The notes: generated from the sequence alone by a model not told the origin. A DNA stretch of 54,909 nucleotides from an uncultured bacterium (GCA_903927265.1 CAIYMF010000020.1:1-54909), one strand, 5' to 3'. Numbered from the stretch's first letter, positions 46,355 through 50,131 are shown. Made by a program: numbers and translations.

Positions 46355-47593
46355 GTGACTGAGAACTCTGCGCTGTGGCGCCGCACCGTGATGTGGGCTG
46401 GTATCCCACTGATGATCGGTGCGCTCAACGAATACGCACTCGCGGTGGCACTTCCGAGCATGCGAGACGAGTTTGCTCTCGCCGTGCATGACCTGCGGTG
46501 GGTGATGCTGTGTTTCCTCCTCGCCGACGCGGTGCTACTCATCGCCGCGGGTCGGTATGGCGATCGCGTGGGTCGACGCCGTGTGATGGTGATCGGCTTC
46601 AGCATCGTCGCGGTGGGTTCTCTCGGTGCGGCGATTGCTCCGACGTTTGCGCTGTTTCTGGTGGCGCGCATCATTGAAGGAATCGGTGCAGGATTCCTCT
46701 TCTCGGGATTGCTCGGCATCGTTCGCGATGCGGCTCCCGCTGACAAACTCGGTCGAGCGTTCGGACTCTGGGCTTTCGTGGGTGCCATCGCGGTGTTTCT
46801 TAGCCCCCTTCTTGGCGGGCTACTTACTCAAACTGCGTCATGGCGATGGATCATGGCGTTCAACGCGTTGTTGGCACTCGTTGCGCTGGTTCTCACTCCG
46901 AAGTTCATGCCAGTTACACCCGAATCTGAGCGCCGTGAGCGTGCTCGAACGGGCGGACTGATAGCGCGTGAGCCTTTGGAGAGCGAGGGGTTCATTGCGG
47001 GAACGAGCATCATGATGAGGATCTACGCGACGATGACACTGATCTGGTTCATGTTGACCTTCTTCTTGCAGGCGACATTCGACCTCTCGCCACTCCAGGT
47101 GGGTGCGGTGTTTTGCTCGTACGCGATCTGGTGGCTCGTGTTGACACCATTTACTGGTCGATTGGTCGACCGAGTCGGTGCGCGCGCTCCGCTGCTAATC
47201 GGCCTCGCGCTTGGGGTACTGGGCATGCTGATGCTGGCCATGAGTGCAAGCAGCGAACGTCTTGGCGTGGTGGTGGGCGCCTTGACCCTGTGTGCGTTCG
47301 GGATGGCCTTCGCAGTTCCGGCCACCAATGCCGTCGCTTTTGCCAACGTCGACCCGGCATGGCGCGGTGAGGCATCGGGCATCAATATGACGCTGCGCCT
47401 CGTGGGATCGATCGTCGGCCTCGCCGTTGCCGGACGTGTGATCGCGTCGAACGTAGGCTCGTCGGCGGGTGCTGGCCTGGCGCATTCGGCGGTCACATTG
47501 TGGGTGCTGGGGGCAGTGCTCCTCGCGGTGGCATTCGTCGTTGCTGTCATGCGCGTGAAGAGTCGCGCGGTCGAGGTTACTGCTGAGCAGTAA
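46355..47593 (+). CDS. MFS transporter (DHA-type, 12 TM)
   Basis: A 412-residue transporter of 12 helices. GALNEYALAVALPSM replaces the first-helix motif D, ADAVLLIAAGRYGDRVGRRRVMV is motif A, and ARIIEGIGAGFLFSGLLGIVRDAAPADKLGRAFGLW (overlapping parts) covers motifs B and C. It is probably an exporter of drugs or metabolites. The start is uncertain: GTG 46355 fits the first helix best, but no strong ribosome site is seen. Its end overlaps the convergent thi-type permease gene by 17 bp. Confidence 0.85.
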   Translation: MTENSALWRRTVMWAGIPLMIGALNEYALAVALPSMRDEFALAVHDLRWVMLCFLLADAVLLIAAGRYGDRVGRRRVMVIGFSIVAVGSLGAAIAPTFALFLVARIIEGIGAGFLFSGLLGIVRDAAPADKLGRAFGLWAFVGAIAVFLSPLLGGLLTQTASWRWIMAFNALLALVALVLTPKFMPVTPESERRERARTGGLIAREPLESEGFIAGTSIMMRIYATMTLIWFMLTFFLQATFDLSPLQVGAVFCSYAIWWLVLTPFTGRLVDRVGARAPLLIGLALGVLGMLMLAMSASSERLGVVVGALTLCAFGMAFAVPATNAVAFANVDPAWRGEASGINMTLRLVGSIVGLAVAGRVIASNVGSSAGAGLAHSAVTLWVLGAVLLAVAFVVAVMRVKSRAVEVTAEQ

Positions 47594-48365
47594 CTGACAG
47601 ACGTCGCCAGGGAATGACGAGTCTCTCTAGCGCAAACGTCAGCGCGTACAACATCAGCGTCAGCACTGACGTCACCAGCACGGCCGCAAGTACGAGGTCG
47701 GTACGAAAACTGTTCTTCGCTACCTGCATGTAGATGCCGAGGCCTTCGGTAGCGCCTGCGTACTCCGCGAAGACGGCTGCAACGACGGCGTACGTGATTC
47801 CAATGCGGATGCCGGTGAACAGTGAAGGAAGCGCAGCAGGAAGGCGGAGGTAGCGAAACTCTTGTCGACGAGGTGCGCCCATCGCCACCATGGCGTCATG
47901 AGCTCCGGGCCCGCCACTGGCGTACCCCTGCACCAAACTCACAGTGATCGGAAAGAATGTCACTAACGCCACGAGCAGCACTTTCGGAACGAGCCCAAAG
48001 CCGAACCAGAGCACCATAAGTGGTGCCAGCACGATCAGTGGAAGCGTCTGAGACACGATGAGCAGTGGCATCACTGCGTGCTTGGCCGGACGTGAGAAGT
48101 CGATCAGTACCGACAGTACGAAACCGACGACGATGGCCAGAGCGAAGCCGAGCACAGCAGCGCGCAGGGTGGGTATCGCGTTGTGCCAGAGATCGGCGCG
48201 CCCGAGCCAGGCGCTGTGTGCGACGCGAGTGGGCGCTGGAAGTACCGCCGCACTCACGCCGGACACGAGTGAGTACCACTGCCAGATCGCCAGTAGTGCC
48301 AGCACCACCAGCGCGGGGGCGGCGAAGCGCCACACATGTGCGTTGGTGGCGTGGTCCTTAGGCAT
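47577..48365 (-). CDS. ABC importer permease (ThiX/SsuC type)
   Basis: A 262-residue permease with six hydrophobic helices and the coupling (EAA) loop AMGAPRRQEFRYLRLPAALP followed by GIRIGITYAVVAAVFAEY. This is the NitT/TauT/ThiX group that imports thiamine pyrimidine precursors, taurine or nitrate. It is the third gene of the TPP-riboswitch operon, with its ATG overlapping the preceding stop by eight bases, so it most likely passes a thiamine precursor such as HMP or its formylaminopyrimidine form. An ATPase partner is not encoded here. Confidence 0.9.
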   Translation of the reverse strand: MPKDHATNAHVWRFAAPALVVLALLAIWQWYSLVSGVSAAVLPAPTRVAHSAWLGRADLWHNAIPTLRAAVLGFALAIVVGFVLSVLIDFSRPAKHAVMPLLIVSQTLPLIVLAPLMVLWFGFGLVPKVLLVALVTFFPITVSLVQGYASGGPGAHDAMVAMGAPRRQEFRYLRLPAALPSLFTGIRIGITYAVVAAVFAEYAGATEGLGIYMQVAKNSFRTDLVLAAVLVTSVLTLMLYALTFALERLVIPWRRLSVTAQQ

Positions 48366-48930
48366 CGTTGTCGTTCACGGTGGTCGTCACCATCAGAGTG
48401 GCGCGCTCGAAGATTCGGTCGCCAGCCAGTAAGAGTCGCTCCTGTTCGGCCCACGCATCCCAGTGCTCGGCGAACACTGATCCGTCTTCAACGCGCGACA
48501 GGGCGCGCGCTTGCCTCACACCCGCGCCACAGTCGAGCCAGACTAGATACGACAGGTACTCGGCGCTGGACTTTGCGCCACAGCCGACACCTTCAATGAT
48601 CAGCAGAGGTGGGGGCTCAAGAAGGCGTGGTTGGCCAAACTCGCCACGTTCCCAGTCGTAGTTCGGAACCCGTGCCGCTTCACCACGTGAAAGGGGCGTG
48701 AGTACAGTGGAGGCGAGCAGAGCCACGCCCTGCTCGAGACCATCCCAACCGGGATAGAGCCCTTCCATCGACACGAGCGGACACGCCAACTCGGCCTGTA
48801 GCAATCGCCCTGTAGTGGTTTTGCCACTTCCAGCTCGGCCATCAATGGCGAGCACCGTTGTCGGTCCGCACAGTGGTGTCAACGTGGTGATGCGCGACGT
48901 GACATGGCGGATGAGCGCATTGAGTGTCAT
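48358..48930 (-). CDS. P-loop kinase-like protein (uridine-kinase/AAA type) in the thi operon
   Basis: A 190-residue nucleotide-binding protein. VLAIDGRAGSGKTTTGRLL is a clean Walker A and LLIIEGVGCG a Walker B-like strand, with a short Arg-rich lid region (RQARALSRVEDGSVF). It lacks the ABC signature (LSGGQ), the Q-loop and D-loop, so it is not the missing transport ATPase. The fold and length resemble small uridine-kinase/shikimate-kinase-like enzymes. ATG 48930 overlaps the binding-protein stop (ATGA). Lying between the binding protein and the permease under a TPP riboswitch, it might phosphorylate the imported thiamine precursor; this is inference. Confidence 0.8.
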   Translation of the reverse strand: MTLNALIRHVTSRITTLTPLCGPTTVLAIDGRAGSGKTTTGRLLQAELACPLVSMEGLYPGWDGLEQGVALLASTVLTPLSRGEAARVPNYDWERGEFGQPRLLEPPPLLIIEGVGCGAKSSAEYLSYLVWLDCGAGVRQARALSRVEDGSVFAEHWDAWAEQERLLLAGDRIFERATLMVTTTVNDNDA

Positions 48931-50012
48931 GGCGCGGGGAGGTAGTCGTTGGTGAAATACGAACCCCAGTCGGGCTCGGTCTTCAGTGGGTCGCCGTTGG
49001 CATCGTTGAGCAACGCGTTCTTGTAAAGAAATCCGCCGTAGTCTTTCCATCGAGCAAGCTGCTGATACCCGACCTTGCCGTTGGCGTCGGTGAGATAGCC
49101 GCCGTCGGCGAGTGCCTGCTGGCTATCGATCACCAATTGCGGATTAGGGAACGCTTCCGCATCCGCTGAGATCATGTCCTTGGCGGCATCAACAGGATGT
49201 TGCGCGGCGAATGTGTACCCCTTCTGAGTTGCTGACAGAAATTTCCTGGCCAGATCGCCCTGAGTCTGAAGATAGTGGCGACTGCTCGCGAGCAGAATTG
49301 AGTACTGGTCGGGGAAGCCGTAGTCAGTTAAGGCAAAGAACTTCATGGGCTTACCGGCGGCCGTGGCCTGTACGCCTTCCCACGTGGTGACCGGAATGGT
49401 GAAGTCGGCCGCTCCACCATGGACAGCCTCGTAGGCGCTGGTGTTCAAAGTGACGTTGGTGAAGTCACCGGTGCCGCCGTCGTTCTTGATGATGGTGCGC
49501 AGGAGTGGTATTTCGTCGGGGGTGCCGAACCCAGCGTAGATCGTGCCGTCGAGGTCTTTCGGGCGTGTGATGTCCGTTCGATCGGCTGATACTCCGATCG
49601 CGTAGGTGCCCTTCTGGTCGGGGGCGAACACGGCGATCACGTCTTGGCCGGCCGCGCGTGCGTACGCAACGCCGGCCTGGTAGGTGAAACCAAAGTCGGC
49701 TTTGCCGTTGGCGACCAAGGTTTCGGGAGCGGTTGTCGCGTAGGGAATGATCTGCAGCTCGATTCCTTCGGCCGCGAAGTAGCCACGTTGTTGTGCCACG
49801 TACATTCCGGTGTAGTCGGTGTTCGGGCTCCAACTCAGCGCAACTGTCACCGGAGTGGTGGCGGTGGTTGGGGAGGGTGACGAGTCGCTGCTGCTCGGGG
49901 CCGCTGCGGTCGCTGACGTGCTCGTCGTCGCCGCCGTCGAACCGCCGCACGCGACAAGAACTGTTCCCGCGAAAGCGGTGATGAGTGTGGTGAGGATGAG
50001 CCGTGACTTCAT
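48927..50012 (-). CDS. ABC solute-binding lipoprotein, ThiY/NMT1 family
   Basis: A 361-residue lipoprotein. The signal ends in the lipobox LVAC with Cys22 as the lipidated residue, and a Ser/Thr/Ala-rich linker follows to about residue 52. The mature domain begins VTVALSWSPNTDYTGMYVAQQRGYF (overlapping parts), the NMT1/ThiY opening, and ADFGFTYQAG, GTPDEIPLLR and DFTIPVTTWEGVQ follow. Family members bind pyrimidine precursors of thiamine. The TPP riboswitch immediately upstream supports this. The GGGAGAA at the riboswitch's end is the ribosome site, six bases before the ATG. Confidence 0.92.
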   Translation of the reverse strand: MKSRLILTTLITAFAGTVLVACGGSTAATTSTSATAAAPSSSDSSPSPTTATTPVTVALSWSPNTDYTGMYVAQQRGYFAAEGIELQIIPYATTAPETLVANGKADFGFTYQAGVAYARAAGQDVIAVFAPDQKGTYAIGVSADRTDITRPKDLDGTIYAGFGTPDEIPLLRTIIKNDGGTGDFTNVTLNTSAYEAVHGGAADFTIPVTTWEGVQATAAGKPMKFFALTDYGFPDQYSILLASSRHYLQTQGDLARKFLSATQKGYTFAAQHPVDAAKDMISADAEAFPNPQLVIDSQQALADGGYLTDANGKVGYQQLARWKDYGGFLYKNALLNDANGDPLKTEPDWGSYFTNDYLPAP

Positions 50013-50018
50013 GAGTTC

Positions 50019-50105
50019 TCCCTACGCCGGCATGACCCGAACAGGTTCGACGGTCGGCGGCGCTGTTCAGCCGCCCTCTCAGCCCGGTGCTAGCCCAGAC
50101 TCCCG
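50019..50105 (-). ncRNA. TPP riboswitch (THI element)
   Basis: Read leftward, the leader has GGGAGTCTGGGC, CCGGGCTGAGAGGG (the GCUGAGA pyrimidine pocket), a variable P3a hairpin (GGCGGC...GCCGCC), GACCGTCGAACCTG, TTCGGGTCATGCCGGC and GTAGGGA. These are all the conserved THI blocks in order. The final GGGAG is also the Shine-Dalgarno sequence of the binding-protein gene, so TPP binding would hide it and stop translation when thiamine is plentiful. A possible -10 (TAAGAT) lies at 50129-50134, inside the end of the upstream peptidase gene. Confidence 0.95.
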
Positions 50106-50131
50106 TGTTGGTGAAGTTGTGTACTCGTATC

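Follow-up and report, generated by a model that had tools for sequence, protein, structure and literature searches.

What does a small kinase do in a vitamin uptake operon that has no ATPase of its own? This question is raised by an operon in a 54,909-nucleotide stretch of DNA (GCA_903927265.1 CAIYMF010000020.1:1-54909; the window), which belongs to the 98.4%-complete genome G000 of a freshwater actinobacterium that is unable to make vitamin B1. The operon lies on the minus strand and begins with a TPP riboswitch (THI element; 50006..50112). The riboswitch is followed by the gene for a lipoprotein-type substrate-binding protein (SBP) of 361 residues that belongs to the NMT1/THI5 (ThiY-like) type (48927..50012; PF09084, E 3.4e-54), by the gene for a 190-residue P-loop kinase, predicted here to be a thiamine kinase (48358..48930; PF00485 PRK, E 5.2e-6), and by a ThiX-like ABC permease gene (47577..48365; PF00528, E 1.7e-26). 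The SBP and kinase genes overlap by 4 nt (ATGA) and the kinase and permease genes by 8 nt, and a convergent MFS gene comes after the permease. Gene calls and Pfam searches identified no ABC ATPase in the operon or beside the permease. A sequence-only reading had described the locus as a TPP-riboswitch importer operon with a kinase-like gene and without an ABC ATPase, and the matches to RF00059, PF09084, PF00485 and PF00528 confirmed this description. The span that it gave, to 50105, was placed at the right locus but fell 7 bases short of the full aptamer match.

The riboswitch was matched by cmscan over model positions 1-105 with a score of 43.5 bits (E 1.5e-7 in a 301-base search), which is below the curated Rfam gathering cut-off of 54.3 bits for RF00059. 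The default gathering search missed it, and a search of the short stretch in E-value mode found it. The aptamer core is conserved (CUGAGA...ACCUG...CGUAGGGA). The 3' strand of the aptamer reaches the translation start of the SBP gene, where it lies against the Shine-Dalgarno sequence and the start codon and continues into GGGAGAACUC-AUG. Because this 3' strand (CGUAGGGAG) sits directly at the SBP ribosome-binding site, the riboswitch is predicted to act on translation, and masking of that site is its likely mode of control. A genome-wide search of G000 returned a single TPP riboswitch, that of the window. The same-genus genome G001 carries a riboswitch at the same place (49.6 bits).

The kinase contains a Walker A motif, GRAGSGKT, at residues 31-38 (48817..48840, minus strand). 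The sequence of the protein holds no LSGG signature after Walker A, and no ABC_tran match was obtained in Pfam, as expected from the earlier description of a 190-residue P-loop protein with Walker A and no ABC signature. The match to PF00485 was a weak PRK/uridine kinase match (26.9 bits; cut-off, 22 bits), and NCBIfam NF005115 (PRK06547, a hypothetical P-loop protein) was matched at 124.9 bits, under its equivalog cut-off of 173. Searches for the ThiK family TIGR02721 in NCBIfam and for thiamine pyrophosphokinase PF04263 in Pfam gave no match to the kinase. An AlphaFold2 model of the kinase, built with seven sequences (pLDDT 87.9, pTM 0.85), matched the folds of UCK, PanK and PRK with Z scores of 16-17 at 14-23% identity, and that of NRK1 with a Z score of about 11. 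The model indicates that the protein is a small-molecule kinase of the uridine kinase/PanK/PRK fold and not an ABC subunit; the fold and the missing signature also ruled out an ABC ATPase in disguise. The shared fold leaves the substrate undefined. Residues G31, G36 and K37 were invariant among the 15 transporter-linked homologues that were compared, and the kinase has an invariant signature made up of Y-x-G-W, E-G-x-G and R142/R146.

The complete gene order SBP-kinase-permease-ATPase was found in three relatives, G014 (L033), G006 (L034) and G017 (L035), and the ATPases of these operons have both Walker A and LSGG. The permeases of the intact operons are 60-61% and the SBPs 58-60% identical to the window proteins. 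The presence of the kinase in the operons of these relatives indicates that it is an old member of the operon, and the window's genus has probably lost the operon ATPase. It is scarcely credible that the P-loop protein itself drives import as a substitute for an ABC ATPase. The position of its gene between those of the SBP and the permease would suit such a role, but the protein has a uridine-kinase fold and no ABC signature, and its PnuT partners in other genomes need no ATPase. The normal ABC ATPase beside the kinase in the three relatives contradicts the idea outright. A TPP riboswitch was searched for before the complete operons of G006, G014 and G017 and was not found, and none was detectable anywhere in these three genomes.

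Loss has gone further in G001 (L032), where the permease gene is gone too. Only 27 bases lie between the stop codons of the MFS and kinase genes, and this gap holds an apparent relic of the first codons of the permease. The G001 SBP (L032:10211-11218) lacks approximately 28 residues through an in-frame deletion that lies between two short DANG repeats.

If the importer functions, its ATPase has to be shared from elsewhere, one of the options that the sequence-only reading had offered. The ancestral operon encoded an ATPase, and the nearest one now is that of a paralogous importer. Outside the operon, the best ATPase of the genome (G000:C63:2740-3528) is 47% identical to the ThiZ of L033 and belongs to its own NMT1-type SBP-permease-ATPase set. 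Since the ThiZ that belongs to the operon is conserved at 75% from one family to another, compared to 47% for the C63 protein, the latter is a paralogue and not a displaced gene, and it was rejected as the orthologous ThiZ of the operon. An orphan ThiZ with a THI element, which had been proposed as the object of a genome check, was not found in G000 and is ruled out by the single TPP riboswitch of that genome. The EAA/coupling-helix stretch of the window permease (residues 152-176; 47838..47912, minus strand) has diverged from the intact operons. Its identity to L033 and L035 is 36%, compared to a core mean of 65-68%, which places it in the lowest ~4% of 25-residue windows, and the two intact operons share 68% over this stretch. 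As judged from sequence, this divergence would be compatible both with a switch of ATPase partner and with a relaxation of constraint.

Two TENA_THI-4 family genes were observed near the paralogous NMT1-type importer (L056:11858-13244 on G001:C12, and L055 on G000:C63); both genomes are without ThiE and ThiC. The G001 contig C12 consists of N over 8 kb beside the paralogous importer (L056:1-8001), and the absence of a gene there is uninformative.

These losses raise the possibility that the importer, as opposed to the kinase, is dead, with the ABC part decaying and thiamine entering the cell by another way. The ATPase is absent beside the operon in G000, the permease is deleted in G001, the window permease has a diverged coupling helix, and the G001 SBP carries its in-frame deletion. 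Set against this, the dN/dS values for G000 versus G001 were 0.11 for the SBP and 0.13 for the kinase, similar to those of neighbouring genes and indicative of purifying selection, which argues against simple decay, but these values mostly reflect the time before the losses. The riboswitch is intact in both G000 and G001, and a related ATPase is available at C63. A dead importer is a possibility that we regard as doubtful, and one that is compatible with a thiamine kinase.

Gene neighbourhoods were surveyed in 60 genomes of the order, with inventories made by family searches, and in a phylum set of 396 genomes (Actinomycetota). Homologues of the kinase were present in 31 of the 60 order genomes, and the family was found behind three unrelated types of transporter, ABC ThiXY, PnuT and YkoEDC, each with TPP-riboswitch cases. 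Kinases linked to ABC ThiXY(Z) occurred in G000, G001, G006, G014 and G017. The f7 genomes, which are Nanopelagicaceae-like, carry the kinase directly behind a PnuC/PnuT-type gene (PF04973). A TPP riboswitch lies upstream of pnuT at five f7 loci (L008, L010, L013, L015 and L019), with sub-threshold scores of 32.7-38.8 bits, and sub-threshold TPP riboswitches were also found in the f7 genomes G045 and G041. By the acI operon described in PMC5301498, the f7 genomes resemble Nanopelagicaceae. The third type occurs in two f15 genomes, G284 and G327, where a TPP riboswitch, YkoE (PF09819), YkoD (ABC_tran twice), YkoC (CbiQ) and the kinase form one operon (L193:3089-6789 and L194:3001-6645); the riboswitches score 58.2 bits (G284) and 55.2 bits (G327), over the gathering score. 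YkoEDC may import HMP and not thiamine.

In the f3 genomes and in G057, riboswitch and pnuT are followed by an unrelated AAA_28 kinase. With AAA_28 in the place of the window-type kinase behind riboswitch and PnuT, different kinases appear to do one job, and AAA_28 is a second candidate thiamine kinase family. Riboswitch, PnuT-type gene and AAA_28 (NadR-like) kinase stand in a row at L113, L114, L123, L127, L128, L130 and L139 (genomes G018, G023, G034, G057, G030, G053 and G050, respectively). The riboswitch targets in other families were ThiBPQ-type importers and, where ThiE is present, for the most part a CytX-like permease; these were recognised from sequence, some by profile.

Across the phylum set, window-type kinases were found in 36 of the 396 genomes (E 1e-12). 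Most Actinomycetota homologues lie away from thi genes, as do those of f1g3 and f4 within the order, and no close thi neighbours of homologues were found in Streptomyces-like, Frankia and other genomes except f15. The ThiXY-linked and PnuT-linked kinases fall on separate branches of the tree, are about 30-36% alike, and are not close orthologues. The sequence-only reading had proposed a salvage kinase under TPP control, to be refuted if the protein were a uridine kinase conserved away from thiamine genes. The outcome for the refuting argument was mixed: many homologues outside the order are indeed not thi-linked. The proposal itself gained support from the three kinds of transporter and from the TPP riboswitches in the window's genus, in f7 and in the two f15 genomes. 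A broad role as a nucleoside or metabolite kinase, unrelated to thiamine and present in these operons by happenstance, is distinctly unlikely. The many homologues away from thi genes would agree with such a function, as would the closest folds, which are those of uridine, pantothenate and ribulose-phosphate kinases. However, with one or two such riboswitches per genome, chance would not be expected to produce both the riboswitch link behind three unrelated transporters and the substitution of another kinase family in the same operon position.

The pathway inventory of the 60 genomes covered ThiC, ThiE, ThiL, TPK and ThiK. Family searches detected ThiC and TPK in none of the 60 genomes and ThiK over its cut-off in none, ThiE in five, and ThiL over its cut-off in 54. 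A search of G000 revealed neither ThiC nor ThiE, and ThiL is present there. Among the 60 genomes, none of those that bear the kinase had ThiE, G000, G001 and the full-operon genomes included. Because ThiL needs TMP and ThiE is mostly absent, on this inventory TMP would have to come from thiamine in most of the genomes, and a thiamine kinase would be needed. ThiK was rejected as that enzyme here, as it gave only weak APH-type matches and none over the cut-off; the match in G000 was an APH-type protein with 77.5 bits versus a cut-off of 299. The f7 genomes G022, G041, G045, G055 and G058 contained not even weak ThiK-like matches, which leaves the window-type kinase as the only candidate seen in those five.

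Strong matches to the AAA_28 kinase profile were obtained in 21 of the 60 genomes, all of them f3 and f6. The window-type kinase was present in 29 genomes of f1, f2, f4 and f7, a count that leaves out G040 and G008, whose best matches fall in a divergent paralogue branch of the tree. It overlapped with neither ThiE nor AAA_28, ThiE and AAA_28 occurred together only in G046, and the three jointly covered 54 of the 60 genomes. Alternative enzymes for a single step would be expected to show such mutual exclusion; it follows families, so few independent events lie behind it.

The absence of any other TPK from all 60 genomes could also mean that the kinase is itself a thiamine pyrophosphokinase, converting thiamine directly to TPP like the TPK/Tnr3 beside PnuT in Bacteroides. 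TPK is the classical partner, and tnr3 comes after pnuT in Bacteroides thetaiotaomicron (PMC5613172). We consider this unlikely, in view of the uridine-kinase-type phosphotransferase fold and of the retention of ThiL in 54 of the 60 genomes with ThiE in five, as a direct TPK would strip ThiL of its substrate.

The nature of the imported compound was approached through the SBP. Its nearest PDB relative was 4nmy (E 1e-40), which we take to be a thiamine-bound protein of Clostridium difficile, and the FAMP-binding ThiY 3ix1 came far behind (E 1.7e-25). PnuT transports thiamine (PMC5613172), and together with 4nmy as the nearest SBP relative this favours thiamine over pyrimidine or thiazole precursors. 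The predicted ligand of the SBP is thus probably thiamine. Phosphorylation of an imported precursor, HMP or hydroxyethylthiazole, as put forward by the sequence-only reading, has in its favour the presence of 3ix1 among the SBP relatives and the YkoEDC transporters of G284 and G327, which may carry HMP. No ThiE was found in the kinase-bearing genomes among the 60, there is no known route from such precursors to TMP, and PnuT is a thiamine transporter (PMC5613172). With no ThiC or ThiE to join phosphorylated precursors to TMP, and yet with ThiL present, the proposed substrates were not supported; a precursor kinase is very unlikely and was rejected.

Taken together, the gene contexts and the gaps in the pathway suggest that this is likely a TPP-repressed uptake-and-trapping operon of a thiamine-auxotrophic actinobacterium, and that the kinase is a thiamine kinase of the uridine-kinase/PRK fold. 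The riboswitch would sense TPP, and from its position the TPP-bound form would hide the SBP ribosome-binding site. In the ABC importer, whose most likely cargo is thiamine, the SBP would bind the compound and the permease would form the channel. The lost operon ATPase would presumably be replaced by that of the paralogous NMT1-type importer, the weakest step of the scheme. The kinase, which is not homologous to ThiK, TPK or ThiM, would then phosphorylate imported thiamine to TMP and thereby trap it in the cell, and context and pathway gaps suggest that TMP would feed ThiL for conversion to TPP.

For the order as a whole, which comprises abundant freshwater Actinobacteria without ThiC and mostly without ThiE, we lean towards the view that a candidate family of the uridine-kinase/PRK fold and, in sister families, the unrelated AAA_28 family supply TMP from salvaged thiamine, and that the two replace each other behind riboswitch-controlled PnuT. 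If true, a named candidate would fill the missing step from thiamine to TMP in abundant freshwater actinobacteria, prediction of vitamin B1 auxotrophy from genomes would be improved, and the order would provide a clear example of unrelated kinases swapping behind the same riboswitch and transporter.

A search of the literature available to us found no paper that names this kinase as a thiamine kinase. A THI element ahead of pnuC/pnuT has been reported in acI actinobacteria, with the product as a probable thiamine transporter, and acI strains were described as thiamine auxotrophs in which nearly all enzymes for de novo synthesis and salvage are missing (PMC5301498). Such bacteria would nevertheless have to convert imported thiamine to TPP. 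That acI operon corresponds to the f7 operon described here, and the parts of PMC5301498 available to us do not mention the adjacent kinase. The window operon shares with ThiXYZ (FAMP/thiamine-type) systems an NMT1/THI5 SBP, a BPD_transp_1 permease and, in relatives, an ABC ATPase. It differs from them by the kinase gene within the operon and by the lack of an ATPase in the window and of the permease as well in G001. The kinase belongs to the same sequence family as PRK06547 (NF005115), although its score is below 173 and PRK06547 has no assigned function. It has the fold and Walker A in common with UCK, CoaA, PRK and NRK1, from which it is set apart by an identity of 14-24% and a different predicted substrate. 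Riboswitch-controlled uptake with trapping by a kinase is shared with the pnuT-tnr3 operon of Bacteroides, whereas the kinase here is not a TPK and ThiL would perform the second step. Like ThiK (YcfN) of E. coli, the kinase is predicted to convert thiamine + ATP to TMP + ADP, with ThiL acting next; ThiK, however, is an APH/choline-kinase-type enzyme, and the window kinase, with its predicted uridine-kinase/PRK fold, bears no sequence relation to it.
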